Below are positions 36,569-54,922 of a stretch of 64,000 bases of DNA, one piece after another. The translations under genes were made by a program, and so were the position numbers. The notes below the pieces were generated by a model. That model had not been told where the DNA came from, did not search any database, and worked only from the letters and a program-made list of their open reading frames with translations. Source of the stretch: Bdellovibrio sp. (GTDB lineage Bacteria > Bdellovibrionota > Bacteriovoracia > Bacteriovoracales > Bacteriovoracaceae); assembly GCA_016187935.1 (NCBI GenBank), contig JACPIU010000033.1, positions 1 through 64,000 of the forward strand. Direction: 5' to 3'. Position 1 is the stretch's first letter; each line of letters begins with the position of its first letter.

Positions 36569-36841
36569 ATGTATAAACATCACATCTTTGTTTGTGAATC
36601 GTGCCAGTATGAAACAGAGAAGGGACCCAGTGATCCGGCACTTGGAAAAATATTGAGAAAAAATATTAGCTCAAAGGTCAAAGAAATGTTTTCGACAGGA
36701 GATGTCTGTGTCACCGGAAGTGGATGTCTCGGGCAATGTGAGCAAGGAATAAGTAGTGTCATTTATCCCAAAGGGGAATGGATAAATGGATTAAGACCAG
36801 GCGATGAAATAAGAATTATCGAGAAACTCACGAAACGATAG
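36569..36841 (+). CDS. Thioredoxin-like [2Fe-2S] ferredoxin
   Basis: 90 residues. HIFVCESCQYETEKGPSDPA, then DVCVTGSGCLGQCEQGISSV, is the cysteine arrangement of the small thioredoxin-fold 2Fe-2S ferredoxins (four Cys, the last pair in CLGQC). The C-terminus YPKGEWINGLRPGDEIRIIE is typical. It is a cytoplasmic electron carrier of unknown partner. AAAGGATATC is before the ATG. It follows the DUF3347 gene by 28 bp and may share its transcript. Confidence 0.78.
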   Translation: MYKHHIFVCESCQYETEKGPSDPALGKILRKNISSKVKEMFSTGDVCVTGSGCLGQCEQGISSVIYPKGEWINGLRPGDEIRIIEKLTKR

Positions 36842-36893: not shown

Positions 36894-37766
36894 TTATGGT
36901 GAAAGACGTGTAAGAAAACCCGCCACAATAAAGATACAAGACACCATGACAAGCTCGACCAGAACGGTTCGAGCTACATTTCGAGCAAATTCCATCTCGC
37001 GATCAGGCCTCCAGCGTTTCATGTGTATGAACGGATTGATAGAGGCCACACTGAGAGTCAAAATGAAAAGGCCGAATTTTGTCAGCACCAATTTACCATA
37101 TTCGGTAGAAACGAGTGATGCGAAGTCTACACCATAGCGAAGCGCCATGGCCAAGCCTGTCACCCCAATGAGCGCCGTGCTTGCCATGGCAAAATGCGAG
37201 AAGCGAGTTACTACGAGGATGCTTGCATTTGCGGGTAAAGAATTTGGGGTCGAATGAAGCCTTGTCTTGAGCCAGAATAAGAGAGTCATTAGCCCTCCCG
37301 TCCATATTGATACGGCGACAAGATGAATATAGTCGAGTATGAGGTTGATCGCGGTTCCCGTTTGCACAGTGCTTGCGTGCCCACTCAAGCTAAAGCAAAG
37401 AGGAAGGATGAGCGTGATCCACCAAAATTGAGATAATTTTTTTATTAGTGCGATAGTCAGAATTACAAGAATAAGCCCTATCTTGCATAGGCCGATATGG
37501 CCAAAATGGGTACTGGTGGCAACGCTAAAAAGAACCGAGGAATTCCATGATTCGGCCATCTCAACGGCAACCAGAATGAACCATATGAGCGAAACCAGGA
37601 AAATAGTGCTCGTCAATACTACTGACAATTTTCTGCTGCGGTTAAAGCAAGAGCTAACTGTTTCACCCGCAGCAGAAGCAATCCCGGCATGAAAAATAAA
37701 CATTCCAAGAAGCCAACTGCATAACAGGTAATCTAATCCATGAACAATTCCGAGAATTGTATTCAT
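36894..37766 (-). CDS. copD: Copper resistance protein CopD family
   Basis: 290 residues, eight predicted membrane segments with conserved His (GIVHGLDYLLCS, ATSTHFGHIGL, LDYIHLVAVSIWTGGLMTLL, VTRFSHFAMASTALIGVTG, INPFIHMKRW). The IHLVAVSIWTGG and RFSH segments are typical of the CopD domain, an inner-membrane copper importer or heme-b-like protein working with periplasmic CopC. It starts 9 bp after copC and is the last gene of the long minus-strand metal operon. Confidence 0.82.
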   Translation of the reverse strand: MNTILGIVHGLDYLLCSWLLGMFIFHAGIASAAGETVSSCFNRSRKLSVVLTSTIFLVSLIWFILVAVEMAESWNSSVLFSVATSTHFGHIGLCKIGLILVILTIALIKKLSQFWWITLILPLCFSLSGHASTVQTGTAINLILDYIHLVAVSIWTGGLMTLLFWLKTRLHSTPNSLPANASILVVTRFSHFAMASTALIGVTGLAMALRYGVDFASLVSTEYGKLVLTKFGLFILTLSVASINPFIHMKRWRPDREMEFARNVARTVLVELVMVSCIFIVAGFLTRLSP

Positions 37767-37775
37767 GATCGAAAG

Positions 37776-38138
37776 CTACTCTTTTGGAGCAAAGGTGAAG
37801 TCATACTCACCATGGGCCTTGTGCGCATCAATGGAAGTGGCTTTCCATTTGACGTGATATTTCCCTGCTTTGAGGGGGCCTTTCAAAGAGATCGACAATG
37901 CGTCCTGCTTTTCATCGATCACAATCTCACCTGAATCCATTCGATTCTTGCTTGCGACTTCTATCACCTCAATCTTGGAAAACTTAGGTTCCACCTTGCC
38001 GCTTAGTTTAAGCCTAATTGTCTGGATTGGTTTAACGACGACTTCATCTTTTCCTGGTGAAGCCGTGACGAGATCAATGTGGGCCAAGGTGATTGCTGGA
38101 CATAACGTGAGCATGAGGAAGACAAATTTAAAATTCAC
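37776..38138 (-). CDS. copC: Periplasmic copper-binding protein CopC
   Basis: 120 residues from a GTG start. Signal peptide ending TLA-HIDL, so the mature protein starts with His, the copper ligand conserved in CopC and LPMO-like folds. Further ligands lie in DAHKAHGEYDFTF at the C-terminus. The fold is a small beta barrel (AVVKPIQTIRLKLSG-type strand, GKYHVKWKATS). It delivers or buffers Cu(II) in the periplasm with CopD. The start overlaps the previous stop by one base. Confidence 0.88.
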   Translation of the reverse strand: MNFKFVFLMLTLCPAITLAHIDLVTASPGKDEVVVKPIQTIRLKLSGKVEPKFSKIEVIEVASKNRMDSGEIVIDEKQDALSISLKGPLKAGKYHVKWKATSIDAHKAHGEYDFTFAPKE

Positions 38139-38557
38139 TATCTTATGTCCTGAAGTTTGGTGAGCGTGTCAACAACCGAATTGGAATCTATGCTTATGTT
38201 AAATTTCCAAGCACCTCTCATGCCTAAAAATATTTTTTTCTCGTAAATCCCTTCACCTTTTTCTTCCACAGCATATTCTGGTGGGCGCATACTCATTGTG
38301 GCCATATCATAAGGAATCACTACCTTTGCGCCAGTGACAGATTGCTCTTCAGTATTAGTTATTTTTAAGGTGAGGATGCCCCAGCCGCGCTTTAGTTCTG
38401 ACCAATTTCCGCTGATTTGATACTGATTATTGACCGTTGGTTCAGCTACATCAAATTCAATCGCCGTTGCAGCATGAGCATCATGAGAGTGATGCTGGCA
38501 TGTGGATACGCTGCCAACCAATAAAAATGCAAATAGAACGGACATCATTGTTTTCAT
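38138..38557 (-). CDS. Exported His-rich YtkA/FixH-like protein
   Basis: 139 residues. Signal peptide and a CQHHSHDAH segment (Cys20 region) that may be a lipobox plus metal-binding His cluster. The following domain (GWGILTLKITNTEEQSVTGA, MATMSMRPPEYAVEEKGEG, FLGMRGAWKFNISIDS) has the YtkA/FixH-type beta fold with Met-rich loop, often linked to copper delivery. One of two such genes flanking an outer-membrane barrel gene. AAGGAG before the ATG. Confidence 0.7.
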   Translation of the reverse strand: MKTMMSVLFAFLLVGSVSTCQHHSHDAHAATAIEFDVAEPTVNNQYQISGNWSELKRGWGILTLKITNTEEQSVTGAKVVIPYDMATMSMRPPEYAVEEKGEGIYEKKIFLGMRGAWKFNISIDSNSVVDTLTKLQDIR

Positions 38558-38575
38558 TTAATCTCCTTAATATTT

Positions 38576-39526
38576 TTATAGGCCACTATACGTCATTGAT
38601 AAGGCCACGGTTTGAGCATAGGGTTGATTAGCTTCATAGCGATAAAATGGAAATGCTGTTTCATAAGAGACTCCAATAGTCCAAACGTCAGCATAAAAAT
38701 AATTAAATCCTATCTGAGTTGTAAACAATCTGGCAGCGGAGCCTTGAGTACTTTGTCTATCAACTGAAGTCTCAAATTGCCAGAGTTGTTTCAGACCTAG
38801 AGTACTACTCCATCCATTGAATAGATAAGCGATGCTTTCGCTAGTTTGGACACGATTTCCAGTCTTCATGGTGTAAGGAGAGCTTATTGGTTCGTTGTGC
38901 AAATGTGTGACATACTTTTTCAAGGGATAGAAAAAAGAGGCGTCCAAGGAAAACTTTATTGGACGATAGAGTTTCGAAGAAGCGATGCCAGCGTGGAGTG
39001 TTGTCACACCCTCTCCGGTAATATCGGCCCCGTATGGGTCATGAGAGTGATGTATGGAATTCCCCATGGGTAATCGGGCGCCACCATATAAAGATATTTC
39101 AGGATGAAAAGTCAGAAAGTTAAGGTCCTCCCAGAGCATATACCTCGCTTCAATTGCGGGATCTCCCATGGCAGTCGAAGAATGATTTTGCATGGAAATC
39201 TCATAATCATTGTGAATCATGGGAGCACTGGCACCGATTTGCCAATCATCATTTAGGCGAAAGGCGCCACCAATAGTTGTAATGAATGACTGTTTAGTTG
39301 TTTCTGGAGAATTCGCACGATAATTTCCATATGGATCAAACTGTCCTTCTACGGAACGATACTGAGTAGAAGCACCAAGTTGAAAATGCTGTTCTGAGGA
39401 TAAGACATTTATAACCTGCCCACCTCCCCCAGAATGGCAACTGGATGCCAGAAGATTATCGAAATATCCCAGGCATAATGCAGCAAGCAGAAATGTTTTA
39501 AATTTCGGTTTCAAAACTGTACTCAT
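38576..39526 (-). CDS. Predicted outer-membrane beta-barrel protein of the metal cluster
   Basis: 316 residues from ATG 39526 (a start at 39541 is possible). Signal peptide (FLLAALCLGYFDNLLASSC), then CHSGGGG. Alternating strands throughout (FITTIGGAFRLNDDWQIGAS, AEARYMLW-type, ISLYGGARLPMG, WTIGVSYETAFPFYRYE) ending in VALSMTYSGL, a barrel-like C-terminus. His-rich loops (SIHHSHDPYG, THLHNE) may bind metal. The start lies inside the end of the upstream YtkA-like gene, so coupled translation is likely. Function unknown; a metal-related outer-membrane channel or sensor is an inference. Confidence 0.65.
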   Translation of the reverse strand: MSTVLKPKFKTFLLAALCLGYFDNLLASSCHSGGGGQVINVLSSEQHFQLGASTQYRSVEGQFDPYGNYRANSPETTKQSFITTIGGAFRLNDDWQIGASAPMIHNDYEISMQNHSSTAMGDPAIEARYMLWEDLNFLTFHPEISLYGGARLPMGNSIHHSHDPYGADITGEGVTTLHAGIASSKLYRPIKFSLDASFFYPLKKYVTHLHNEPISSPYTMKTGNRVQTSESIAYLFNGWSSTLGLKQLWQFETSVDRQSTQGSAARLFTTQIGFNYFYADVWTIGVSYETAFPFYRYEANQPYAQTVALSMTYSGL

Positions 39527-39971
39527 CTTTCTTATCACCATCTTTTATTGTGAGTGTGACTTTCCATATCCCACCCATCGAAAATAATATTGAAACACGA
39601 TATGACCCGTCAGCTTGTAATGTTGCTTCTTCTTCAACTTCCATTCCAGGCATACTAGGCATTTCATATAAAATACTTAACTTTGTTTCAGATGCCAATG
39701 GATGAAGGTCCTGGGCATGTACGCTGCGAATGATAAGAAGAAGTTTTTCGTTGTCTTTGGGTTTGCGAGTGAGAGTAACACCATTTTCATCTGCCAAAAT
39801 CATAGACACATAATATTTCTCATTGGTCGTGACTTTGGCAGGGCCACTGGCTTGCCCCAAAGAACCAGTCTGAATCAATTCGTCCTTTACTTCTTTGTTC
39901 ATCGGGCCGCAGCTAGAAATAATGAGGGAGAGAGAAAAGATAGCAATAAACAGGTCTTTACTTAATTGCAT
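39498..39971 (-). CDS. YtkA-like lipoprotein
   Basis: 157 residues from ATG 39971 (MQLSKDLF) with AAGGGG upstream; longer readings extend into the NosL gene. Signal peptide with lipobox ISSC (about residue 21). Domain strands KYYVSMILADENGVTLTRKP and a Met-rich loop LYEMPSMPGMEVEEEATL, then GSYRVSILFSMGGIWKVTLT, resemble YtkA/FixH-like copper-related proteins. The gene overlaps nosL upstream and the barrel gene downstream. Confidence 0.7.
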   Translation of the reverse strand: MQLSKDLFIAIFSLSLIISSCGPMNKEVKDELIQTGSLGQASGPAKVTTNEKYYVSMILADENGVTLTRKPKDNEKLLLIIRSVHAQDLHPLASETKLSILYEMPSMPGMEVEEEATLQADGSYRVSILFSMGGIWKVTLTIKDGDKKDEYSFETEI

Positions 39972-40386
39972 TTTCGACCCCTTGTAGAATGACACCTTCA
40001 CCATATTTCTTCTGGGCCTCCAAAGCCTCTGCTTCCGTGGCAAAAGCTCCGAAATAGGGTGCCATCACGTTTTCGCCAATATCCGCCTTGATCTTCGTGC
40101 TTTTAAGCAGAAAAAAGGCCTTATCACCTGCCAGTAATTTTTCGGGATGATTAAAATCAGCGACTTCAATTTTCTTATAGCGCGGATCATGTTTGACCGC
40201 CTTTTTAAGGCAGGAGATGGCGCATACATGCAGAGGTTCTTTTGCGGCCGGTTCAGTTTGTAAAACAAAAAGGTTTTTGGCATGTTCTGCGAGTGGCATT
40301 CCACAAACACTACATACTCGGCCGGCAGCCATTGCAGAACAAGCAATCACGGAAATCCCAAGCAAAAAAGCAGTGATCTTATACAT
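39958..40386 (-). CDS. nosL: NosL-family copper chaperone-like protein
   Basis: 142 residues. Signal peptide (FLLGISVIACSAMA), then RVCSVCGMPLAEHAKNLFVL, the CxxCGM pair characteristic of NosL, and later HVCAISCLKKAV and MAPYFGAFATEAEALEAQKK. NosL binds Cu(I) and is best known from nitrous oxide reductase maturation. No nosZ or other nos gene lies in the window, so here it most likely serves periplasmic copper handling. AAGGGA before the ATG. Confidence 0.82.
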   Translation of the reverse strand: MYKITAFLLGISVIACSAMAAGRVCSVCGMPLAEHAKNLFVLQTEPAAKEPLHVCAISCLKKAVKHDPRYKKIEVADFNHPEKLLAGDKAFFLLKSTKIKADIGENVMAPYFGAFATEAEALEAQKKYGEGVILQGVENAIK

Positions 40387-40402
40387 AACTTTCCCTTAAA
40401 AA

Positions 40403-40861
40403 TTACAAGGCCCCTTGGCACTCAGGCGTTTGGTCAAAACGCTTTTGTTGTTCAGGCACAAGTTGTTTACGAATTTCCACTACTAAATCAGAATAAACCC
40501 TAACTTCCTCAGAGCAAATAAAAAGTCCATTTTTAGTGCAATTATCAAGAATGGCCTGCCAGTCTTGATGCCCTAAGAACACACGGCCACAAGCATCCTT
40601 GAGATCAACTTTGGCAATTGCCCGATTGAAGGCCGCCTTGTAGTCTTTACTCTGGACAAGTTGAACCGTTACTTGCTCGATTTGGCCAAAATAATTTCTA
40701 AAGGCATGATGCTGCTCAGATTGGTAAGGCGTTTGTGGCATTGCCTCGAGCGCCTTAATTCGCAACTCATCAACTTTTTTAATCCAATCGCGAAGCGCAA
40801 CGTCCTCTTTGCATCCAGAAAAACCTATAATAAATAATATAAAAGGCAAATATCGTTTCAT
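40403..40861 (-). CDS. Small predicted lipoprotein of the metal cluster
   Basis: 152 residues. Signal peptide with lipobox FSGC (about 14-17). Mature part mostly helical with His pair (SEQHHAFRNYFG) and four Cys (DACGRVFLG, DNCTKNGLFIC, PECQGAL). It overlaps the TolC-like gene by 4 bp, so it is part of the same operon. No known family recognised. A periplasmic metal-binding accessory is an inference. Confidence 0.6.
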   Translation of the reverse strand: MKRYLPFILFIIGFSGCKEDVALRDWIKKVDELRIKALEAMPQTPYQSEQHHAFRNYFGQIEQVTVQLVQSKDYKAAFNRAIAKVDLKDACGRVFLGHQDWQAILDNCTKNGLFICSEEVRVYSDLVVEIRKQLVPEQQKRFDQTPECQGAL

Positions 40862-42117
40862 AAGCGCCCCCTAATCAGTTCGATGGCAGCAGGTTCTTTG
40901 GTGTAATTACCTTGAAAAAGCATTCGCTTAAGTCTGTCCTCATTGGCCATGAAGCGATACTGAACGGCAAAAAAGGATGTTTCAGATTGAATATGATTGC
41001 GTGAAGCTTCAACAAGCATCAACATCTCAATTCTCTCGCCTAAACTTAGACGTTCATAAAGTTTTCGCAGAGTCAGCTCCGTCAAAACTGTATGTCGTTT
41101 TAAGTCTGGATAATTGGCGATATCGAGATTGTAGTTTTCAACCAGAAGTTTGAGTTGCCGTTTTAGTGTTTCAGTCGCGGCACGCTGCTGGATTTTCAAA
41201 GTTTCTTTTTGGGCGGCCACAACACGCATAGTAGCTCCAGTACCAAATCCTAATCCGCCTGATTGTGCTGGCCCATTATTCATGCCTGAACTGCCAAGAA
41301 AAGTATACATGGCTTCTTTTCTCATAAAGTTTGAAGCGGCAATAAGATGGTCGAACTCGCGAATTTCTGGCGAAGAATCAACAGCGCGAAATTCGAAATC
41401 TTGATAGCGTAAAGGTTCCAGTATACTAAAATCTGGTAGTGGAATTGGGCCAAGTTTGACCTCTACTTCACTGGGATATCCCATCATGTACGCCAAAAGA
41501 GTCGTTTCTTCCAGAATGAGAACTTCTAGTGCCCTGCGATCTTCTTTAAGTGCTAAAATTCGCGTTTCAATTTCACGGGAAGCACCATCGCGCAATCCTC
41601 CGAGAATTTCATGGATGCTCACAATCCGAAAAAGTTCTTCAAATTCTTGAATATTTCTATTTACATGTTCGAGAACGGCACGATCAAGTAAGGAATTAAA
41701 GTAAAGTCCCTTGCTCGTCATAACCAAATTGGCCCAAAGTGCTCGATAAGCTTCTTTGTCTGCAAGATAAAGAAGCTTTGCGCGCTTCAGAGCAAACCAA
41801 TTAGCAGGAACTAAAAATGGAGTTATATCCTCGATGATTCCCATCGCAGCTCCAACATAATTACCCATTACGGCATCAACTGCCACACCAGCAATTCGCC
41901 AAAGATTAAGACGTGGGAGTAGATTGCCCCTTGCTATCTGAATTGCCTCTTTAGCTTGATAAACGCGAAGAGCATTTTCCAGAACTTCATAATTATCATT
42001 CGATATTTTTTTGACTACATCATCAATTGAAATCGTTACAGTCTCAGCGGCGGGACCTATGGGAGATAAAAATAATTGAAGAAAGATAAGGACCGCAAAT
42101 ATTTTCTTGGAAAACAT
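40858..42117 (-). CDS. TolC-like outer-membrane efflux protein of the metal operon
   Basis: 419 residues from ATG 42117, with AAGGAG at good spacing. Signal peptide (FAVLIFLQLFLSPIGPA). Long helices with the OEP layout: ALRVYQAKEAIQIARGNLLP near the N-terminus, then coiled segments (ILALKEDRRALEVLILEETT; AAQKETLKIQQRAATETLKR). It is more divergent than the other two TolC proteins here. It may pair with the CzcA-type pump or with the lipoproteins around it. Confidence 0.7.
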   Translation of the reverse strand: MFSKKIFAVLIFLQLFLSPIGPAAETVTISIDDVVKKISNDNYEVLENALRVYQAKEAIQIARGNLLPRLNLWRIAGVAVDAVMGNYVGAAMGIIEDITPFLVPANWFALKRAKLLYLADKEAYRALWANLVMTSKGLYFNSLLDRAVLEHVNRNIQEFEELFRIVSIHEILGGLRDGASREIETRILALKEDRRALEVLILEETTLLAYMMGYPSEVEVKLGPIPLPDFSILEPLRYQDFEFRAVDSSPEIREFDHLIAASNFMRKEAMYTFLGSSGMNNGPAQSGGLGFGTGATMRVVAAQKETLKIQQRAATETLKRQLKLLVENYNLDIANYPDLKRHTVLTELTLRKLYERLSLGERIEMLMLVEASRNHIQSETSFFAVQYRFMANEDRLKRMLFQGNYTKEPAAIELIRGRL

Positions 42118-42127
42118 ATCTAACTCC

Positions 42128-42832
42128 TTATTTAACTCGTGATCCAGAAAAGGTAAAAATGTTGGCATTTGAACTTGGTCGCATTTTCCCCTGAATTTGA
42201 GTTACGCTTTCTAATTTTCCATCAATAATTGCTTCAGCCATATGAGCGGACATGATCGCATCAACTTCATTTTCAGCAGAATTTTCTTCAGCTATTTGGA
42301 TATTATAAATATTGGCACATCCTTCGGAGGCAATATTTATCACGCCGTTAACAATATCTGGGCGAACATTATCGACAACACAGCCAACAGCTGCATAATC
42401 GGATTCTGGATTCCACTGCAGAATTTGGACTTTAAAAAATAGGCCGGTTAGATCAGCGGTAACTTCTTCCCAGGTGCGAACCCGATCCTTTGGTACATAT
42501 CGTGGAAGGCTCGGTACGAGGGTCAGTCGAATTTTGAAATTATTTTTACTATTGCCATTAATCCCAATATTACCGCCAGCGATTGACCCTTCATAAGTAC
42601 CTGCAACTGCTTGATAAAAACGCTGTCTTCTTTCTAGATCGACCTCTGCGGCCCGGGCCTTGGAGTCGACATATTCCCTCTCGGCGGCGATTCCATTGCG
42701 CGCCGCTTCCTGAGCCTGAATATCTGAAACTTCCCGAATTTTTTCAAAACTCTTCTCATCATTGCATCCAGAAATCAGTCCCAATCCAAGCATCGTACAA
42801 ATCAAGATCGTTCTATTGTTCCCATTTCTCAT
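42128..42832 (-). CDS. Predicted lipoprotein, unknown function
   Basis: 234 residues. Signal peptide with lipobox ISGC (about 20-23). A helical region with repeated Ala/Glu (IQAQEAARNGIAAEREYVDS) precedes a beta-rich part (FKIRLTLVPSLPRYVPKDRV, QILQWNPESDYAAVGCVVDN) and ends in ANIFTFSGSRVK. AGGAGG before the ATG. It is 10 bp upstream of the TolC-like gene and presumably works with it at the outer membrane. Confidence 0.6.
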   Translation of the reverse strand: MRNGNNRTILICTMLGLGLISGCNDEKSFEKIREVSDIQAQEAARNGIAAEREYVDSKARAAEVDLERRQRFYQAVAGTYEGSIAGGNIGINGNSKNNFKIRLTLVPSLPRYVPKDRVRTWEEVTADLTGLFFKVQILQWNPESDYAAVGCVVDNVRPDIVNGVINIASEGCANIYNIQIAEENSAENEVDAIMSAHMAEAIIDGKLESVTQIQGKMRPSSNANIFTFSGSRVK

Positions 42833-42963
42833 AAAGTCCTCCTCAGCGATAGAGTCATAAGCGATATTTCACATGGCGTAAAGACCGCCCCGTAGTGAGT
42901 TTTGGCATTAACACTATAGTGGAGAAAGGCGTGTGTACATCCTGTTGATATCTAAGGCAAAAA

Positions 42964-43215
42964 TTATTCTTCCTTTGGGGTAGCATCTTTAGTTCCTTCG
43001 TGACATTCACACTCAGGTTCGGGTTTTCCGCATTTGCTACAGATCTCAACTTTTTTTCTACGGGCCTTCTTTTCAATCGGTTTCTCTTTAGAAACTGTCT
43101 GAGAGTCAGTCTTGGCAGTTTTCTCAGTATTTTCCTCATTGGCGTTGGCCAGTGCTACCAACCCAAGGAGGGAGAGACTTAAAGCAATCATCATTGGACC
43201 TTTTCTAATTCTCAC
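42964..43215 (-). CDS. Small exported Lys/Glu-rich protein with a Cys/His metal motif
   Basis: 83 residues from GTG with AAAGGAG upstream. Signal peptide (MIALSLSLLGLVALANA). A charged linker is followed by EICSKCGKPEPECECHEG, with four Cys and one His in 12 residues, a compact metal-binding knuckle. It lies between the CzcA-type pump and the lipoprotein gene. It may be a periplasmic metal scavenger. No family recognised. Confidence 0.6.
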   Translation of the reverse strand: MRIRKGPMMIALSLSLLGLVALANANEENTEKTAKTDSQTVSKEKPIEKKARRKKVEICSKCGKPEPECECHEGTKDATPKEE

Positions 43216-43248
43216 TTTTGTACTCCTTTCTTTTAATTACACTTATAT

Positions 43249-46200
43249 TTAAGCGGTCTCAGGGCCGAATCTGATAATCCATTTCTCCGTCATTGAATAA
43301 GCTACTGGCAGCACGATTAAAGTTAGAAGAGTAGAAGAAATGATTCCCCCAATGATGACAGTGGCAAGCGGACGTTGTACTTCTGCACCTAATCCTGTGG
43401 CAAGGGCCATGGGAAGGAATCCCAATATCTCAGTTAGTGCAGTCATCATAACGGGTCTGAGGCGTCGCAATGCCCCTTGTTCAACGATAGAGATTCCAGT
43501 AATTCCCTGCTCCCTTAACGTGTTGAAGTTATTAACCAATACAATGCCGTTTAAAACAGCAATACCCGACAGAGCGATGAACCCGACACCGGCAGAAACA
43601 CTAAACGGAATTCCATTAAGCTGGAGACCCAGAACACCTCCAACAAGGGCCATAGGTACACAAAGGAAAATCAGCAGAGTTTCCACCACATTTCTAAAGG
43701 CCGCATAGATCATCATCAGCACTAGCAGTAATGCTATCGGGGCCATCAGGGCAAGTCGTAACTTTGCCGCTGAGAGGTTCTTAAAATTTCCACCCCACTC
43801 CATGTAATATCCTGAGGGTAGCTTGAGTTCTTTTTCCACGCTGGCCTGAGCTTCACGAACAAAAGATTCAGTATCTCTTCCACGTGGATTAATGAGAATT
43901 GCTATACGCCTTTTTGTTTCCTCTCTGCTATATGAGCTATAGCTTTCCTTGAAGCTGATATTCGCCACTTCGTGCAAGGGAATTGTGGAACCACCGAAAA
44001 GTCCTACGGGTAGATTCTTCAAAGTTTCGATATCATCTCTGTGTTCTGGTCCCAGTCTTACGAAAATTGGAAAACGTTTCATACTTTCATAGAAGGTGCC
44101 TACCTGCTCTCCACCAACTGCAATTCCAATCGTTTCCAGGACCTCTCTTGTTGATACTCCAAGTTTTTTTAATATCCCCTTTTTTGGGGATATTTCGAGT
44201 ACGGTCATCTTGCCTTTGGCTTCAAGCTCCACGTCACCTGCTCCAGGAATATTTGAAATGATGCTGACAGCTTTCTGACCCTGCTCTGTCAATACGTCCT
44301 GGCCTTCTCCAAAAATCTTAAGTGAAACATCGGCACGAGTGCCTTCGATAAGTTCATTGAATCGTAATTGAATTGGCTGACTGACCAGAATTCGCTGTCC
44401 GGGCGTGGAGGCTTCAAGTCGTTGCACGATATCTGCTACAATCATCGACTTATTCCTCTTTTTGCCATTTATTTCGGGCCACTTTTCTTTGGGTTTTAGC
44501 ATGACAAAGCTATCAGAGATATTGGGCCCCATAGGGTCGGTGGAAATTTCAGAAGTTCCAAGTCGACTAAAGACGTGACTTACTTCAGGTATCTGAGTCA
44601 GGATTTGCTGGGATTTTGTTTCCAGCGCGACTGAATGAGAAATTCCGACTGATACTGGGCGAATTAGTTGAATAGCGATAGAGCCTTCATTTAATGTCGG
44701 TAAAAATTCTCCGCCAAGGCGAGCAAATAATACGATGCTAAGGATAATTGAAGCTATGCCTAAGGATAAAACAATTCCTTTTACCTTCAGGCCGATGGCC
44801 AATGTCGGGGCATACACCCGTTGAAGCATTCGCATAGGCCAGGGTTCCTTCTCGCCCAATTTCCCGCGAAGGAGAAGACTTCCTAAGGCAGGCACGAAGG
44901 TAAAAGAGAGAATCAGTGCCGCAAGAAGCGCGAAAATAAATGTGGCTGCCATGGGAATAAACATTTTTCCCTCAATACCAACGAAGGCAAAGATTGGAAT
45001 AAAAACGACAACAATAATAAGCTCACCAAACCCTGCTGATTTACGAATTTCCATCGTTGCATTGTGAATTGTGTCCTTAACTTCTTTTGAAGTAAGCTTT
45101 CTTTTGAAAGCAACCGTTTTTTCATGAATATGTCGTACGCAATTATCAAGGACAATCACTGTACCATCGACAATAATCCCAAAATCAAGCGCACCGAGAC
45201 TAACCAGATTGCCAGAAATTCCATATCGTCGCATGAGAATGAAAGTAAACAGAAGTGAAACGGGAATAACTATTGCAGTGATCAGCGCAGAGCGAAGATT
45301 ACCAAGAAGCAGAAAAAGAATGAGGATGACGAGGGTGGCGCCGATAATCAAATTGTGTGTAACTGTGTCAAGAGTTGCATTGACAAGGTCAGACCGATTG
45401 TAAAGGGCCTTGATTTGATAATTTTCCGGGAGCCCCATCTTAATTTTGTCGATTTGCTCTGATACACGCAAGCTCACATCGCGACTGTTTTCACCCATCA
45501 ACATTAAAACGGTACCAAGGACAACTTCCTGGCCATTATAAAGAGCGGCTCCCGTTCTGAGTTCTTTCCCATATCCAACTTTGGCAATATCGCCTATCGA
45601 GATAACCTGAAAGTTTTCAAGTGTCCGAATTGGAACATCACGGATATCGTCAAGACTTTGAAATAGTCCACTTGCTTGCACAATAAACTGATCACCCGTC
45701 TGCTCAACATACCCCCCGCCAGAATTTTGATTTACTTTTGTAACGGCCTCCTCGATATTACTGAAGTGAAGCCCGTACTTGGCCATGAGTTGAGGATTGG
45801 GTGCAATATGATATTGCCGTTCATGGCCGCCAATCGTGTTTATCTCAGCCACGCCCTTGACAGTAAGGAGACGCGGTCTTACGTACCAATCTTGAATGGT
45901 ACGAATTTCAGTGAGCTGTTCTAACCTTTTCTCATCTTTTTCGGGGTTTTTGGCCTCAATCACATAGTGATATATTTCACCAAGACCAGTGGAGACCGGA
46001 CCCAGTTTTGACTCCGCCGACTCCGGAAGCTGACTGGAAACAGACTGAAGGCGCTCTGAAACTAACTGTCTTGCCTTGTAGATATCTGTGTCATCTTCGA
46101 AGACAACTGTAATCTGAGACAGACCATAACGTGTGAGTGAGCGAACTTGGGTGACACCTGGAGCTCCATTAAATGCCGCTTCCAAGGGAAAGGTCACCGT

Positions 46201-46389
46201 CCGCTCAATTTCCTCCGGCCCTCGTCCTTCGACCTGAGTGTTTACTTGCACCTGTACATTCGTGATATCTGGAACAGCATCAATTGGGAGGTGTTGAAAA
46301 CTTTGCCATCCCGTGAGGGCAAGAATCCCTGTGGCCAGAATGACGACCCAGCGATGATCAATCGAGAAACGGATAAGTTTTGAAAGCAT
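43249..46389 (-). CDS. RND heavy-metal efflux pump, CzcA-type (HME1-like)
   Basis: 1046 residues, twelve membrane segments with two large periplasmic loops. N-terminus FSIDHRWVVILATGILALTG, then DAVPDITNVQVQVNT. The helix-4 motif is LGALDFGIIVDGTVIVLDN (near residue 400). The DFG-x3-D-G pattern marks divalent-cation (Zn/Co/Cd/Ni) HME pumps; the usual final Glu is replaced by Asp here. The neighbours point to copper, so substrate is uncertain. The operon gives it a TolC and only a very short adaptor. Confidence 0.87.
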   Translation of the reverse strand: MLSKLIRFSIDHRWVVILATGILALTGWQSFQHLPIDAVPDITNVQVQVNTQVEGRGPEEIERTVTFPLEAAFNGAPGVTQVRSLTRYGLSQITVVFEDDTDIYKARQLVSERLQSVSSQLPESAESKLGPVSTGLGEIYHYVIEAKNPEKDEKRLEQLTEIRTIQDWYVRPRLLTVKGVAEINTIGGHERQYHIAPNPQLMAKYGLHFSNIEEAVTKVNQNSGGGYVEQTGDQFIVQASGLFQSLDDIRDVPIRTLENFQVISIGDIAKVGYGKELRTGAALYNGQEVVLGTVLMLMGENSRDVSLRVSEQIDKIKMGLPENYQIKALYNRSDLVNATLDTVTHNLIIGATLVILILFLLLGNLRSALITAIVIPVSLLFTFILMRRYGISGNLVSLGALDFGIIVDGTVIVLDNCVRHIHEKTVAFKRKLTSKEVKDTIHNATMEIRKSAGFGELIIVVVFIPIFAFVGIEGKMFIPMAATFIFALLAALILSFTFVPALGSLLLRGKLGEKEPWPMRMLQRVYAPTLAIGLKVKGIVLSLGIASIILSIVLFARLGGEFLPTLNEGSIAIQLIRPVSVGISHSVALETKSQQILTQIPEVSHVFSRLGTSEISTDPMGPNISDSFVMLKPKEKWPEINGKKRNKSMIVADIVQRLEASTPGQRILVSQPIQLRFNELIEGTRADVSLKIFGEGQDVLTEQGQKAVSIISNIPGAGDVELEAKGKMTVLEISPKKGILKKLGVSTREVLETIGIAVGGEQVGTFYESMKRFPIFVRLGPEHRDDIETLKNLPVGLFGGSTIPLHEVANISFKESYSSYSREETKRRIAILINPRGRDTESFVREAQASVEKELKLPSGYYMEWGGNFKNLSAAKLRLALMAPIALLLVLMMIYAAFRNVVETLLIFLCVPMALVGGVLGLQLNGIPFSVSAGVGFIALSGIAVLNGIVLVNNFNTLREQGITGISIVEQGALRRLRPVMMTALTEILGFLPMALATGLGAEVQRPLATVIIGGIISSTLLTLIVLPVAYSMTEKWIIRFGPETA

Positions 46390-46402
46390 GACAATTCCTT
46401 AA

Positions 46403-46822
46403 TTATTGAGTACAGGCATCTATGGTGTCAGAGTTTAAATCAGCTTCAGTCATTCTGAGAAAAGTGACACCTTGAATTGCAATTTCGTCATTTGCTTGAA
46501 GATCCACTGATTCAATCGTTGCAATCGTTTCCTCTTGCTTCAAAACCTTAACTACAACTAACGTAATCCAATCATCATAACGCCTGTAGGTGCCAGTGGA
46601 GCTTTTGATTCGCACAAGTGCAGATGTGGGAATCTTCCATGGCCCCGTTCCGGCCAGGGTTTGAAATTTGATTTCGAGGTGCTTGATTGCGATAGGGGAA
46701 AGTTTGAATCCCTCTTCTTTGTTGAATTCTGCTACAGCTTTATCTCGACTATTCGCTAGTCCTCTATCAGAAAAATCGAATAAGCAATAAGCAATGATTA
46801 AGAGTGCTTTTACAATCTTCAT
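46403..46822 (-). CDS. Very short periplasmic adaptor-like protein
   Basis: 139 residues with a signal peptide (ALLIIAYCLFDFSDRGLA). The body (FKLSPIAIKHLEIKFQTLAG, GPWKIPTSALVRIKSSTGTY, DEIAIQGVTFLRMTEADLNS) matches the membrane-proximal and barrel parts of CusB/CzcB adaptors. The hairpin and lipoyl domains that make up most of a 350-400 residue adaptor are absent. It lies between the TolC and pump genes, the normal adaptor position, and overlaps TolC by 4 bp. Short versions of this kind may be a distinct subfamily. Confidence 0.65.
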   Translation of the reverse strand: MKIVKALLIIAYCLFDFSDRGLANSRDKAVAEFNKEEGFKLSPIAIKHLEIKFQTLAGTGPWKIPTSALVRIKSSTGTYRRYDDWITLVVVKVLKQEETIATIESVDLQANDEIAIQGVTFLRMTEADLNSDTIDACTQ

Positions 46823-48111
46823 AGTGATTCCTCAAAAATTTTTCCGTCTAATTTATAAATCAACCAAAGGGCCTGAGTGGCCTTCAACTCTCGCCCATGC
46901 CTTCCCCTCATTAAGTCGAACCTCTGGCGGTGAGATTCTACTAAAACTGAACTGGAGACGAGACCTCTTATATAAAGGCGCTCAATCTGATCATGTTCAT
47001 TTTCTATTGTTTGAATCGGCATAATTTCCTGAAGCGCTTCGATTGCATTTCGATATATTTGCATTTGTTCAGCGCGCTCATGACTTTCCTCCGCTTTTTC
47101 CAGTGAGATTAGTTTTTCAGCAATAGTGACACTGTTATTTGCATGGATCCGTCCTGCACCATTGGCCTGAAAGATGGGGAGGGGAATGTTTAAGCTGATA
47201 CCAAAACGAAACTTTTGAAATGGTCCGTCGGTTTCCGTTTGCACCGTGGGCCCGATCTCTAAATCTGGCCAGGATTGTGCTTGAGCAAGTTGCAATTGTG
47301 TCTCAGCAAATTTGTGATTGGCCAGGAGTCTATCAATGGTCGGTGAATAGGTCGTGCTGTCATGAGAAGAGTCCAATACTTGTGGCATAGTTTTAGAAAA
47401 ATCAGGCAAAACATTTTTCAACTCAGAAAGGGAGTGTCCGGTCGATAAATGGAAATAGTGTTCAATCACTCGTTCTTCATCTAACAGTTCTGAACGTTTG
47501 ATTTTTGCATCAGCATAGGCCATTTTAAATAACGAGGATGATGCCTGTTGTTCAGGAGATCGACGGGGAATCATCGTGATCTGTCGATTTACTTTTTCAA
47601 AGATTAGAATTGTTTCGTCTAGAATTGCTCGTTCGTGTTCAATCTGTTTTAACCGATAAAGGTTCAGTATGGTTTTTATGATGACATCCGCTTGAACTTC
47701 CCGAATTTCCGCTTCTGATTGTCGCTGCATTGATGCGGCTTGATCAATCCGTGCGTTGCGCTTGTCTCCGAGTTCAATTGGTTGAAGCAAGGAGGTTTCA
47801 GACTCGTAAATATTATCACCAAGAAATTTACCTTGAGTGAATCTAGATGAGAGCGCAGGATTCGGACGTTGCTCGGCCATACCTATTAAAGTTTGGAGAC
47901 TTTCACGCTGGAGCTTCACTCGTTTAACCTCGGGGTGTTCTTCTTGGGCACAACGAACTACGTCTTGGGCAGTCATTGGGAGTGGGCATTCGATATGTGC
48001 TCCGTGGACATGCTTGCCATCTCTTTCTACCTCCAATGCCATGGCATAGGGCAAAGTCATTATTTTTGTTATAGTAGTCGCTAGAAGAATCAAAAAACTT
48101 TTCGTCCTCAT
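46819..48111 (-). CDS. TolC-family outer-membrane factor (CzcC/CusC-like)
   Basis: 430 residues. Signal peptide up to about residue 25. OEP domain pattern: EEHPEVKRVKLQRESLQTLI, MAEQRPNPALSSRF and LQPIELGDKRNARIDQAASM, then FGISLNIPLPIFQANGAGRI. The last is typical of CzcC-type proteins. It has His residues just after the signal (DGKHVHGAHIECPLP), which could bind metal. First full pump gene of the minus-strand operon. Confidence 0.83.
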   Translation of the reverse strand: MRTKSFLILLATTITKIMTLPYAMALEVERDGKHVHGAHIECPLPMTAQDVVRCAQEEHPEVKRVKLQRESLQTLIGMAEQRPNPALSSRFTQGKFLGDNIYESETSLLQPIELGDKRNARIDQAASMQRQSEAEIREVQADVIIKTILNLYRLKQIEHERAILDETILIFEKVNRQITMIPRRSPEQQASSSLFKMAYADAKIKRSELLDEERVIEHYFHLSTGHSLSELKNVLPDFSKTMPQVLDSSHDSTTYSPTIDRLLANHKFAETQLQLAQAQSWPDLEIGPTVQTETDGPFQKFRFGISLNIPLPIFQANGAGRIHANNSVTIAEKLISLEKAEESHERAEQMQIYRNAIEALQEIMPIQTIENEHDQIERLYIRGLVSSSVLVESHRQRFDLMRGRHGRELKATQALWLIYKLDGKIFEESL

Positions 48112-48201
48112 GGAGGCACTCCCAAGATTCCAGATCTACAGTGAAATAGGATCAGAAGACAATTCTTCACATTCGCAAATCAACCAAATTATTTTGTGAT
48201 T

Positions 48202-48561
48202 TCAAATTTGAGGAGGTCTGTCGATGCCGTGAGAAAAACGTGAATAGACAGCAGAGGTCATGGAAAATAGTGCTACCTCTGATAAGAAAGGAACTAATAA
48301 TTGAATTGATTCTGCTCTTAAGAATGTCCAGCAGTGGCAAGGGCTGCAATCCAAACAACTATGATTGCTATCCTCAAGAGGATTGTCTTGAGGATGCTGA
48401 TCTTGAAAAATTATCGCATCGATAAAAAGGTCAGGATTTGTGATGCTAGTGCCAGACGTTTCACAGAGTGGTGATTCAGATATGCAAAACGCGCCCAAGC
48501 TACGCTCGGCTGTACTCATAATAACAAAAAAAAGGATGATAAATGACCAGATTTGCTTCAT
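48202..48561 (-). CDS. Small exported Cys/His protein heading the metal operon
   Basis: 119 residues. Signal peptide (FIILFFVIMSTAERSLGA). Cys/His-rich centre HSCLDCSPCHCWTFL, and a C-terminus HGIDRPPQI reminiscent of small proteins found before czc/cus operons in other bacteria. It may bind metal in the periplasm or serve as a leader peptide. No strong ribosome site was seen. It precedes the TolC gene by about 90 bp. Confidence 0.55.
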   Translation of the reverse strand: MKQIWSFIILFFVIMSTAERSLGAFCISESPLCETSGTSITNPDLFIDAIIFQDQHPQDNPLEDSNHSCLDCSPCHCWTFLRAESIQLLVPFLSEVALFSMTSAVYSRFSHGIDRPPQI

Positions 48562-48669
48562 TGAAAGTGAATATTATAATTTCTACTATTGCCAAGTCAA
48601 TCTCAATTACTGATCTATTCTCTGAGGCACTGTCACACTTGAAAGAAATCGTTCGTATTAGCCCAGTAT

Positions 48670-49119
48670 ATGAAATCGAAACGTTCCGCGCGACAATGGA
48701 CAGTGGAAAGAATTCTTAATAACATCCTCCAACTCCAAGAGGTTTCTGCTAAGTATGCCCAATGCTTTCATGCTGATCTTTATAGTGCAGCCATACGCTA
48801 TTTTTCGACATGGAGAAAGGCGGTTGAAGCGGCTGGATTTGAATATCAGAAGGTGTCAAAACGAAAATTAAGAGGTCATTGGTGTCGCGAGACAATTCTA
48901 GCTGAAATCACTCAACTAGCAAAAAAGAACTCGAATCATGTGAGGATGTACAGACGTGATCTTTACAGCGCCGCTATTCGTTTCTTTGGAAGTTGGAAGA
49001 GTGCTATCGAGGCCGCGGGATTCGATTACGAATCTATACGGGAAGACTGGATACCTTCGGATTCAAATAAGATTCGATTTAGACAGAAGAAAGACGTTCT
49101 GAACAAAGAAGAGAAGTGA
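48670..49119 (+). CDS. Protein with two HNH-associated DNA-binding repeats, candidate regulator
   Basis: 149 residues, no signal peptide. Two repeats of about 55 residues: WTVERILNNILQLQE, LYSAAIRYFSTWRKAVEAAGF; and WCRETILAEITQLAKK, LYSAAIRFFGSWKSAIEAAGF. They fit the homing-endonuclease-associated repeat (HNH_repeat type), thought to contact DNA. There is no HNH nuclease motif and the C-terminus is short and basic. The gene sits between the two divergent efflux operons, where a metal regulator would be expected. A DNA-binding regulator is inferred. Confidence 0.65.
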   Translation: MKSKRSARQWTVERILNNILQLQEVSAKYAQCFHADLYSAAIRYFSTWRKAVEAAGFEYQKVSKRKLRGHWCRETILAEITQLAKKNSNHVRMYRRDLYSAAIRFFGSWKSAIEAAGFDYESIREDWIPSDSNKIRFRQKKDVLNKEEK

Positions 49120-49179: not shown

Positions 49180-50463
49180 ATGATTATATATTTTATGTTT
49201 AAGCAGATAATTCTATTTATATTCTTTTGCATGTCTTCAGTGGCCCTCTCCGAGGATGGTCAACTTCAAATTCTCATTGAAGAGGCCCTAAAAGGACGAC
49301 CATTGTTAGAAGCCGCTCGACACGAAGCTTTGGCAAAAGAGGCCGAGATCGGACCTAGAGGGGCTTACGAGGACCCTATGATTGAAATTGCGGCCTTAAA
49401 TTATCCCTCTGATACTTTGTCAGCAGGTGAAATGGGGATGACAGGCAATGAAATTTCTATTAAACAGAAAATCCCTTTTCCGGGAAAACTCACCAAGCTT
49501 CGTAATGCTGCCAGGTTTGAATACGAATCAACATCGTCCACTTACGGGCAAATGAGGTTAGATCTAATTAGAGAAGTACGGATTGCTTTTTGGGAACTTT
49601 TTTTGGCCTATCAAAAAAGAGACATTTTAAAAGAGCAAATTGCGTTGATTGGGCAACTGGTCAGTGTTATGCGAAGTAAATACGCTCTTGGTAAGGTTTC
49701 TCAAGCTGAACTTTTGGCCCTACAAGCTGAAGAAGGTAACCTCAAAGATGAAATACTGACAGCGGAAAAGCAAATAAAGGTGAGGTCAGGAGACCTCAAC
49801 CGTGCGGTTGGACGTGATAGTAATTCGCCACTTGATCGTCCAGTACTTTCCAATAGACCAAAATTTGATTTTGCCACTCTAAGTGAAGATGCTCTTAAGA
49901 CCAAAATACTGGAGCGCAATCCAGGTCTAATGGCCAGAAAGCATGATTTAAATGCCTCGGAAGAAAAACTTGCTTTTACAAAACGCAACTATCTGCCCGA
50001 TTTTGAATTGCGGCTTGCCTATATGGATCGGGTACCAAGTCCTGGTGATCGTGGAGTGGATTTCGTATCGGCAGGTATCGGTTTTTCCATCCCACTATGG
50101 GCATTTTCGAAGCAAACAGAAGAGCGTCAAGGCGCCGCAGCTGAAAGAGCGAGATCGGAAAGATTATTTGAAGAGGAACGTCGACATATCCAACACCTGG
50201 TCCATACCATGTTTTCAGAACTGCGAGAATCTCATGATCGTCTCCAATTATATGAGGGAGGCCTGATTCCTCTGGCCCGACAAGCGGTTGTGTCCAGTAA
50301 AAATGCTTATCTCACAGGGAAACTGGATTATGTTGCAATGGTAACTCTGGTCAAAAATCGCTTTCAAACTGAATTTTCTTATAACGAAGCACTGGTAATA
50401 TTCCAGTCTCGAATCGCGGAATTTGAGGCCTTGCTTGGTGAGTCTTTGGGGGGGAATCCATGA
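49180..50463 (+). CDS. cusC: TolC-family outer-membrane factor (CusC-like)
   Basis: 427 residues (an ATG at 49195 is also possible). Signal peptide (IILFIFFCMSSVALS). OEP pattern: LIEEALKGRPLLEAARHEAL, EISIKQKIPFPGKLTKLRNA, then YALGKVSQAELLALQAEEGN and GIGFSIPLWAFSKQTEERQG. The IKQKIPFPGKL segment is typical for CusC partners of HMBD-containing CusB. It overlaps the adaptor gene by 4 bp. Confidence 0.86.
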   Translation: MIIYFMFKQIILFIFFCMSSVALSEDGQLQILIEEALKGRPLLEAARHEALAKEAEIGPRGAYEDPMIEIAALNYPSDTLSAGEMGMTGNEISIKQKIPFPGKLTKLRNAARFEYESTSSTYGQMRLDLIREVRIAFWELFLAYQKRDILKEQIALIGQLVSVMRSKYALGKVSQAELLALQAEEGNLKDEILTAEKQIKVRSGDLNRAVGRDSNSPLDRPVLSNRPKFDFATLSEDALKTKILERNPGLMARKHDLNASEEKLAFTKRNYLPDFELRLAYMDRVPSPGDRGVDFVSAGIGFSIPLWAFSKQTEERQGAAAERARSERLFEEERRHIQHLVHTMFSELRESHDRLQLYEGGLIPLARQAVVSSKNAYLTGKLDYVAMVTLVKNRFQTEFSYNEALVIFQSRIAEFEALLGESLGGNP

Positions 50464-51563
50464 TCGCGCAGAAACTCTTGTCTATGATCATTACGGGGAT
50501 CATCATTGTTAGCGCTGTCCACCTCATTGGTTGTACACAGAAGCATGAAAGTGAAAATCACTCGATAAAACACGAAACGGTTCAGAATAAAAAAGAACTC
50601 TATCGTTGTTCTATGCACCCCGCTGTCACTTCGGATAAGCCAGGTATTTGTCCCATCTGCCATATGGACCTCGAAAAAGTTGAAGAGGATACATCCAAAC
50701 CTGTTGCCTCGACGAGCGATGTCCAGTCAGTAGAAGGAAGAGGATCATTTTCTCTTTCTCAAGAAAGACAGCAGATGATTGGTGTCACAACCGCACAGGT
50801 GGTGACTAGGCATTTAGGTTATGAAGTGCGTGCCAGTGGCAGAGTGGCTTTTGATCCAGAGCTTTTTACCGCCATTGAGGAGTACAGACAAGCTGTTATG
50901 TCGAGAGGCCAAATGACAGATACTCTCATGCAAAACCAGGCCAATGATCTGATCTCATCGGCTAAAACTAAATTGAAACTGATGGGGCTTTCCGATGATC
51001 AGATTCGTAAACTGGTATCTCAAAAAACCAATGCTATGGATCTTCTTCTACCCAGCGGTTCGGTGTGGGTTTACGCAGAAGTTTTCGAGTATGAGGTGGC
51101 CGGATTAAAATCAGGGTTGGCGGTTGAGGTCGAGACACCTTCTCTGCCAGGAAAATTATTTACTGGCAAACTTTCAAGCATTAACCCGGTGGTGAATTCC
51201 CCAACTCGAACAGTACGGGTGAGGGCCCTTATACCTGATCCAGAGTCACTTTTACGTCCTGAAACTTTTGTGAACGTAAAGATAAAGATAGATTTAGGTG
51301 AGAAACTCGCGATTCCTGAAAGCGCAGTTCTCTTTTCAGGTGAACAGAAATTTGTCTTTGTGGTTAAGGAACAAGGTCATTTCAGTCCACGTGCCATTCA
51401 GGCAGGTTTGAAGGCCGAAGGTTTTTACGAAGTGATATCGGGATTGCAAGTGGATGAAACGATCGTAACATCCGCCAACTTTCTGATTGATTCCGAATCA
51501 CGTCTAAGAGGTGTCCTCGAAAATGCCACTCAAACACCTGTCCCCTCACACGGGGGGCATTAA
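50460..51563 (+). CDS. cusB: CusB-like periplasmic adaptor lipoprotein with heavy-metal-binding domain
   Basis: 367 residues. Lipobox LIGC (about 20-23). An N-terminal heavy-metal-binding domain follows (YRCSMHPAVTSDKPGICPIC, then HMDLEK). This is the C-x-M-H ... C-x-x-C-H-M copper/silver knuckle. Next are adaptor domains (VTRHLGYEVRASGRVAFDPE, LLLPSGSVWVYAEVFEYEVA, VRVRALIPDPESLLRPETFV). It links CusA to CusC and hands over Cu(I)/Ag(I). Confidence 0.9.
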   Translation: MIAQKLLSMIITGIIIVSAVHLIGCTQKHESENHSIKHETVQNKKELYRCSMHPAVTSDKPGICPICHMDLEKVEEDTSKPVASTSDVQSVEGRGSFSLSQERQQMIGVTTAQVVTRHLGYEVRASGRVAFDPELFTAIEEYRQAVMSRGQMTDTLMQNQANDLISSAKTKLKLMGLSDDQIRKLVSQKTNAMDLLLPSGSVWVYAEVFEYEVAGLKSGLAVEVETPSLPGKLFTGKLSSINPVVNSPTRTVRVRALIPDPESLLRPETFVNVKIKIDLGEKLAIPESAVLFSGEQKFVFVVKEQGHFSPRAIQAGLKAEGFYEVISGLQVDETIVTSANFLIDSESRLRGVLENATQTPVPSHGGH

Positions 51564-51565
51564 TC

Positions 51566-54500: not shown

Positions 54501-54922
54501 ACAATATTTCCATCGCGGTTTGGGTAGGGATGATTGCTCTGATGGGTCTTGATGCCGAGACGGGTGTCTTCATGCTTTTGTATCTTGATATCGCCTATGA
54601 GGACCAAGTGCGTGCAGGTAGGATGCGTACCAAAGAAGATCTTGATGAAGCTATCTTACATGGGGCGGTAAAAAGAATTCGCCCGAAGATGATGACTGTT
54701 ATGACCACGTTCATGGGGCTTTTGCCTATTATGTGGGCCACGGGTGCTGGCGGTGATGTTATGCGCAGAATTGCCGCGCCGATGGTGGGGGGACTTGCCA
54801 CTAGCTTCGTTCTTGAGTTGTTGGTCTATCCAGTCATTTTTCATCTATGGAAATGGAAATTTGTGATGAGGGAGGGTGCTGTAATTCCCACTCCTTCTGC
54901 TCATGTGCTCAAGGCCCATTAG
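51566..54922 (+). CDS. cusA: CusA-type copper/silver RND efflux pump (HME4-like)
   Basis: 1118 residues, twelve membrane segments. N-terminus IEWSVHNKLLVFIFTIVAII, DAIPDLSDTQVIIYSKWDRS. Helix-4 motif LAGVAISIGVLVDGAIVEVEN lacks the DFG pattern of divalent pumps, as in CusA. The segment IWTMPIKNRIDMLSTGIRTP is a CusA hallmark, with methionines that line the Cu(I)/Ag(I) path. It is about 70 residues longer than E. coli CusA, with an insert near residues 500-550 (after the first membrane half, FNYHPHNTTRFAGSMLQPFI). Last gene of cusCBA. Confidence 0.93.
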   Translation: MIERIIEWSVHNKLLVFIFTIVAIIAATVCLKTIPLDAIPDLSDTQVIIYSKWDRSPDIIEDQVTYPIVTALLGAPKIKAVRGLSDFGYSYVYVIFEDGTDLYWARSRVVEYLSKILPRLPSEVKTEIGPDATSVGWVYQYTLVDESHQLNLAELRSIQDWQLKFHLQAVPGVAEVATIGGFVKQYQVNIDPSKLFHYGMNITQVVNAVRSGNTDTGGRVVEFSGTEYMVRGRGYIKSKEDIESIVVMTDPQTGVPILVKHLGRVELGPDMRRGVAEFNGMGDAVGGVAIMRQGENALNVINRVKERLEELKPSLPPGVKIVPVYDRSGLIEGAIDTLKHELKIEVIIVSLVILLFLWHIPSATVPILTIPISVFLAFIPLYFTGLTTNIMSLAGVAISIGVLVDGAIVEVENAYKKLEEWNASGRKGDFHLIRLNALKEVGPSVFFSILVIAVSFLPVFTLVDQEGRLFKPLAVSKTLTMMLASVLAITLDPALRMMFTRMDYFNYHPHNTTRFAGSMLQPFINFYERVRKGIIWLGNQVLVGRYYPEENHPISKILFRVYEPAVRFVVKHSGKTLLVAILMMLSTIPVYLKLGSEFMPPLNEGAFLYMPTAFPGMSVTEAKRILQVQDKLIKEFEEVDTVFGKAGRAETPTDPAPFSMVETTVVLKPSSQWPPVKRWYSSWPEFMQPLFHWMTPPHRTFEELQNDMNSKLRFAGIPNIWTMPIKNRIDMLSTGIRTPIGIKVLGKDLKVIQNIGEQIEVALRPLDGTRNVYAERAAGGYYLDFVLNRDELARYGISVADAQMIVNTAVGGENITSTVEGRERYPVNVRYAREFRDDINALKRVLVPTPTGVQIPITQIADIRMVEGPAMIRNENGLLAGYVYVDMTGRDVGGYVQEAKKIVEQKIRVPTGYSLVWSGQYENMIRVKERLKIVIPLTIFIIVLLLYMNTKSGMKTAIVMLAVPFSLIGSIWLLYLLGYNISIAVWVGMIALMGLDAETGVFMLLYLDIAYEDQVRAGRMRTKEDLDEAILHGAVKRIRPKMMTVMTTFMGLLPIMWATGAGGDVMRRIAAPMVGGLATSFVLELLVYPVIFHLWKWKFVMREGAVIPTPSAHVLKAH

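Follow-up and report, generated by a model that had tools for sequence, protein, structure and literature searches.

The described systems closest to the locus analysed here are CopABCD/PcoABCD, RND efflux of the CzcCBA/CusCBA type, the nitrous oxide reductase copper chaperone NosL of clade II, which carries a CXXCXM motif (PMC6530538), the YtkA domains of Bacillus subtilis CtaK and of the YcnJ C-terminus, and the outer-membrane channels of the COG4313/FapF kind. Work on COG4313 channels has so far pointed to the uptake of hydrophobic compounds, not of metals, and the crystal structure shows the lumen occupied by the first ~14 residues (PMC4493636). Our locus lies in a window of 64,000 nucleotides (positions 1 to 64,000 of contig JACPIU010000033.1, assembly GCA_016187935.1) from a Bdellovibrio sp. 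genome of 4.4 Mb. Like CopABCD/PcoABCD, it combines an outer-membrane barrel with periplasmic copper binders, CopC and CopD, but it has no CopA oxidase, its barrel has no match to CopB, and NosL and YtkA are extra. With CzcCBA/CusCBA it shares czcA and czcC, as well as a divergent cusCBA, whereas its one-domain mini-adaptor and its lipoprotein-TolC2-lipoprotein triad set it apart. The NosL protein is akin to that of clade II in its CxxCxM motif and in weak but consistent matches to PF05573, and differs from it in being unlinked to nosZ, in lacking a conserved lipobox, in an extra CxxxC and in the adjoining barrel gene. The likeness to CtaK and YcnJ consists of the Pfam YtkA domain, a Met-rich MPxMPxM motif and a match to PDB entry 9ll2, although here two YtkA copies flank an outer-membrane channel, and the host is Gram-negative. 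The barrel, finally, matches the COG4313/FapF channels in fold, and one of its orthologues matches PF13557, but its N-terminus is rich in Cys-(Cys/His)-Gly and its partners are copper proteins.

A sequence-only reading of the window had described fourteen minus-strand genes from 36,894 to 48,561, mostly overlapping or close together, and we recovered the same open reading frames at these positions (Table 1), with intergenic gaps of -44 to +131 nt, mostly of 18 nt or less, a spacing like that of a single operon. The site at 48,600-48,573 is a strong promoter-like match, though such sites are about as numerous in this region as expected by chance. The fourteen genes are three modules in a row, not one new system. 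Module A, made up of czcC, the mini-adaptor, czcA, a small Cys protein and the triad, is an RND metal-efflux arrangement that recurs in the phylum; module B, nosL-ytkA1-barrel-ytkA2 (38,138-40,386), hereafter the cassette, is the new part; and module C, copC-copD, is a local addition. The self-contained set that had been proposed for 36,894-40,861 was thus right in its core and wrong in its borders, since lipo152 is part of the separate triad, which in other loci follows czcA, copC-copD was added locally, and pump operons like the CzcA block are already known. A gene for a DUF1636-like 90-aa protein (36569-36841), which scores under the Pfam cut-off, runs convergently towards the end of the operon.

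Table 1 Features of the operon in the window, in order of transcription
Feature	Coordinates	Strand	Remarks
Promoter-like site	48573..48600	-	TTGACT-16-TATAAT, 11/12 matches; upstream of first gene
Leader gene of czc block	48202..48561	-	119-aa Cys-containing protein; no family
czcC	46819..48111	-	TolC-type outer-membrane efflux protein; PF02321 (OEP) E 2.7e-10, 40.8 bits
Mini-adaptor	46403..46822	-	139 aa; similarity to CzcB-type adaptors confined to their C-terminal part
czcA	43249..46389	-	RND heavy-metal pump; PF00873 (ACR_tran) E 2.8e-281, 936 bits
Small Cys protein	42964..43215	-	83 aa, secreted (CSKCGKPEPECEC); homologue in L082 between czcA and lipo234, E 9e-9
lipo234	42128..42832	-	Lipoprotein of the lipo-TolC2-lipo triad; kept before TolC2 in L080-L091
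TolC2	40858..42117	-	Divergent TolC-like protein; OEP (PF02321) match in 2/5 orthologues; true start probably about 42,117
lipo152	40403..40861	-	Lipoprotein with conserved Cys pattern (alignment)
nosL	39958..40386	-	NosL-type protein, CxxCxM and CxxxC; no conserved lipobox
ytkA1	39498..39971	-	Lipoprotein with YtkA domain, MPxMPxM motif; PF13115 34.1 bits (cut-off 25.9); true start probably ATG at 39,971
barrel	38576..39541	-	FapF/COG4313-like outer-membrane channel, 321 aa; SCHSGGGG at mature N-terminus
ytkA2	38138..38557	-	Second YtkA-like periplasmic protein; PF13115 24.3 bits, just under the 25.9 cut-off
copC	37776..38138	-	PF04234 E 1.8e-16, 61.3 bits (cut-off 23.3); mature N-terminus probably begins HIDLV
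copD	36894..37766	-	Inner-membrane protein; PF05425 E 2.7e-15, 57.1 bits (cut-off 32.1)

To place the cassette, we compared it with 369 genomes of the phylum (G denotes a genome, L a locus and f a family). The NosL profile was found in 13 of these, and in 10 of the 13 nosL lies 0.4-0.8 kb from a barrel gene, in families f1, f3, f4, f8, f13 and f29. Two of the remaining three (G153, G234) have nosL beside nosZ, the arrangement of classical denitrifiers, and the third (G295) carries it on a separate short contig. nosZ is absent from nine of the ten genomes with nosL-barrel linkage, the exception being G355, where it is found on other contigs. A crude estimate puts the probability of the 10/13 linkage by chance at ~1e-26, but shared descent means that the events are not independent, and the figure shows that the linkage has been kept and nothing more. 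The order nosL-ytkA1-barrel is fixed, with gene overlaps, and ytkA2 is present in most of the close clade. In G054, a genome of another family, nosL-ytkA1-barrel-ytkA2 stands alone between unrelated genes; in G002, of the same genus as the window, the locus reads lipo234-TolC2-lipo152-nosL-ytkA1-barrel-ytkA2. Taken together, these two loci identify nosL-ytkA1-barrel-ytkA2 as the core. Neither the czc block nor copC-copD is present at the G002 locus, and that genome has no mini-adaptor anywhere, on which grounds we rejected the idea that all fourteen genes form one system. Downstream, in place of copC-copD, G002 has a gene for a 404-aa Met-rich secreted protein (MCMPLPMEGMHMKML; L005:6841-8055) of no Pfam family. 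Of the neighbourhood that the earlier reading had suggested looking for, nosL-ytkA1-barrel recurs elsewhere, whereas copC-copD, a common gene pair, was encountered next to the cassette only in the window, the nearest relative having a different gene there. Efflux genes were not found near the cassette in G054 or in the f3 cassettes.

The absence of nos genes had already been noted for the window, and nosZ was not found in its genome either, so that a nos accessory operon was rejected. The set at 36,894-40,861 had also been said to match no described pathway. A cassette of NosL, YtkA and barrel genes is not described in the literature searched, whose coverage excluded most subscription journals. 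A tblastn search with the barrel gave no match in 72,556 plasmids; among named genomes the single barrel sequence gave no match, and an alignment used as query then gave six MAGs. The cassette is real and conserved, and is built from known protein families.

The window NosL scores 19.3 bits against PF05573, under the gathering cut-off of 24, and its comparison with PDB sequences gave no real match. Its orthologues match PF05573 in six of six cases, with E no higher than 0.1 and a lowest value of 1.4e-4, all six carry CxxCxM, and in the alignment C25, C28 and M30, which make up this motif, are invariant, as are C55 and C59. PF13115 is likewise matched by all seven YtkA1 orthologues; by its sequence YtkA1 is a lipoprotein, with CGPMN invariant after the signal peptide, and MPxMPxM is present in most members. 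Both YtkA proteins lead to PDB 9ll2, annotated as 'Copper resistance protein', YtkA1 at E 4e-11 and the YtkA2 profile at E 2e-6.

For the barrel we relied on an AlphaFold model of moderate confidence (pLDDT 67.9, pTM 0.68; pLDDT <50 at the N-terminus), for which Foldseek gave FapF as the best structural match (E 2e-13) and COG4313 (4rl8) at E 1e-9, TM 0.63-0.73. With the same moderate confidence, the barrel is predicted to resemble the 12-stranded FapF/COG4313 channels. The window barrel itself has no match to PF13557 (Phenol_MetA_deg), which is matched by one of seven orthologues at E 5e-6, and neither it nor its orthologues have a Pfam match to the CopB/PcoB family. It had been called His-rich, which is true only mildly (11 His in 321 aa). 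Across 40-odd barrels, C-[C/H]-x-G-G-G at the mature N-terminus is near-invariant; six close relatives have a SCHxGGGG-like form, and nearly all other barrels a CC-rich one, for the most part CCGGG-like. Because the N-terminus of the COG4313 channel fills the lumen (PMC4493636), this segment might, by analogy, form a metal-binding plug.

The barrel profile was found in 145 of the 369 genomes. Twenty further, distant barrel loci, chosen non-randomly from the match list, have a redoxin gene upstream in 19 cases and a YtkA-type gene in 18, in the order redoxin-ytkA-barrel. This gene set belongs to a larger sister clade and is present in Bdellovibrio-like genomes, so that cultured predators could serve as a system. 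All eight redoxins that were aligned contain FLS-x-x-CPCS, and the single one scanned matches AhpC-TSA/thioredoxin models. In a tree of 45 barrels the nosL clade and the redoxin clade are separated with a support of 100, and one change separates the two labels. The tree and the gene order thus indicate that NosL occupies the position of the redoxin in the sister cassette, and the nosL cassette resembles a copper-adapted form of a broader, previously undescribed gene set of the phylum. In G153, redoxin-ytkA-barrel lies ~1 kb upstream of a nosZ-nosL operon (L072:4367-10403). Within the nosL clade, a thioredoxin-fold gene comes immediately after the barrel in the two close relatives whose tail is Cys-Cys (L040, L041), and in none of the six whose tail is Cys-His. 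Pooling all barrels, such a neighbour accompanies 33/38 Cys-Cys tails and 0/6 Cys-His tails (Fisher p 7e-5, for related sequences and a hypothesis formed on the same data). Since, moreover, three f3 cassettes have a Cys-Cys tail without a thioredoxin-fold gene, we regard the tie between gene and tail as a lead only.

A CsoR-family repressor gene adjoins the nosL cassette in L038, L039 and L077, and the TolC2 triad in L085. The C-H-C ligand pattern YC...KH...C is found in all four, and the sole repressor scanned (L039) matches PF02583 at E 1.1e-24. Genes for CusB-type adaptors with a heavy-metal-binding domain (HMBD) lie close to the cassette in the window and in G002, G307, G305, G361 and G355. 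These CsoR and CusB neighbours favour a role in copper excess. In the same four loci, the CsoR gene, a DUF2231-type membrane protein and a secreted protein of ~120-140 aa (VEGEVLDMVCFMAH) recur beside the module.

The reading we favour, to which we give about an even chance, is that the operon is an RND metal-efflux unit plus a conserved copper cassette, with copC-copD added locally, and that surplus periplasmic copper is disposed of at the outer membrane. Its parts differ in strength: judged by homology and by the neighbouring genes, the cassette quite probably handles copper, while disposal rather than uptake is the weaker claim and could fall either way. NosL (through CxxCxM and CxxxC), the membrane-anchored YtkA1 and the Met-rich periplasmic YtkA2 would bind periplasmic copper, buffering it under copper stress, and exchange it with the C-[C/H]-x-G-G-G stretch at the barrel N-terminus, whose place, by analogy with COG4313 channels, would be the barrel lumen; working in parallel with the RND pumps, the cassette would in this way collect the surplus and dispose of it at the outer membrane. 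What we observed is the cassette with its conservation, its partners and its ligand-like motifs; we infer the identity of the metal, the transfer chain, the gating by the barrel N-terminus and the outward direction.

It is feasible, if unlikely, that the traffic runs inwards, with the barrel admitting copper across the outer membrane and NosL, YtkA and CopC handing it on to CopD for import. CopC-CopD-YtkA fusions (YcnJ) of B. subtilis do support copper import (PMC13344008; PMC12362106), and COG4313 channels are uptake channels (PMC4493636); but while copC-copD come after ytkA2 in the window, it is the only place where they were seen to adjoin the cassette, and other nosL cassettes adjoin CusCBA and CsoR, a signature of copper excess. 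We consider it improbable that NosL or the redoxin, together with YtkA, provides a client, for instance a CuA site, with copper or reductant, the barrel being an accessory. This would accord with the postulated action of B. subtilis CtaK with Sco in CuA assembly (PMC13344008) and with the redoxin gene coming first in the sister cassette. COX2 is indeed present in 11 of the 13 NosL genomes, that of the window included, yet none of the nosL cassettes examined has an oxidase or nosZ gene next to it, the window genome carries its oxidase cluster on a different contig (L089), and G002 carries the cassette without a COX2 match. An ordinary metal-resistance operon, in which neighbours are grouped by co-regulation alone and there is no dedicated barrel-NosL route, would suit the recurrent RND operon of module A and so common a pair as CopCD; the pump-free occurrence of nosL-ytkA1-barrel between unrelated genes in G054, and an order fixed over six families, make it very improbable. 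Least credible of all is that the barrel, working like FapF, secretes a cassette protein (YtkA2 or NosL) that would bind copper on the cell surface: FapF does give the best structural match (E 2e-13), but the fit of the COG4313 uptake channel is almost as good, and neither a Fap-like coiled coil nor a C39 peptidase was seen in the cassette.

One could also speculate, with considerable doubt, that the barrels are a new class of outer-membrane channel in Bdellovibrionota, in which the Cys-(Cys/His)-Gly3 plug is a gate controlled by copper or thiols and a YtkA lipoprotein serves it together with a redoxin or NosL, the redoxin form being widespread and the NosL form serving for copper. If true, this would give copper a route at the outer membrane that depends on neither RND pumps nor TonB receptors. 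How copper crosses and is buffered at the outer membrane is poorly understood outside Proteobacteria, and a fixed cassette that joins copper binders to a channel with a conserved tail resembling metal ligands brings this question within reach of tests on just four small genes. The cassette also gives NosL a defined setting apart from nitrous oxide reductase.

In module A, a full-length CzcB adaptor was not found in the operon, and the 139-aa protein is without a Pfam match, having a weak TIGR00999 match over positions 203-270 of 271. By profile, orthologues of this mini-adaptor occur in 123/369 genomes, with open frames of roughly 130-290 aa; in the CzcA operon its length is insufficient for hairpin and lipoyl domains. 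TolC2, whose AlphaFold model is poor (pLDDT 45), was found in 133/369 genomes, and the strong-match loci that were read often pair lipo234-TolC2-lipo152 with czcA (L080-L084, L088, L090). TolC2 is fused to lipo152 as a 586-aa protein in L040 (G361), and apparently to a lipoprotein domain in L041 (G355), and these fusions argue for the triad as one complex. The divergent cusC-cusB(HMBD)-cusA operon (49180-54922) adjoins the fourteen genes, and between the two lies a gene for an HNH_repeat (homing-endonuclease-associated) protein (48670-49119), possibly a regulator, homologues of which adjoin cusCBA in G002 and G355 as well.
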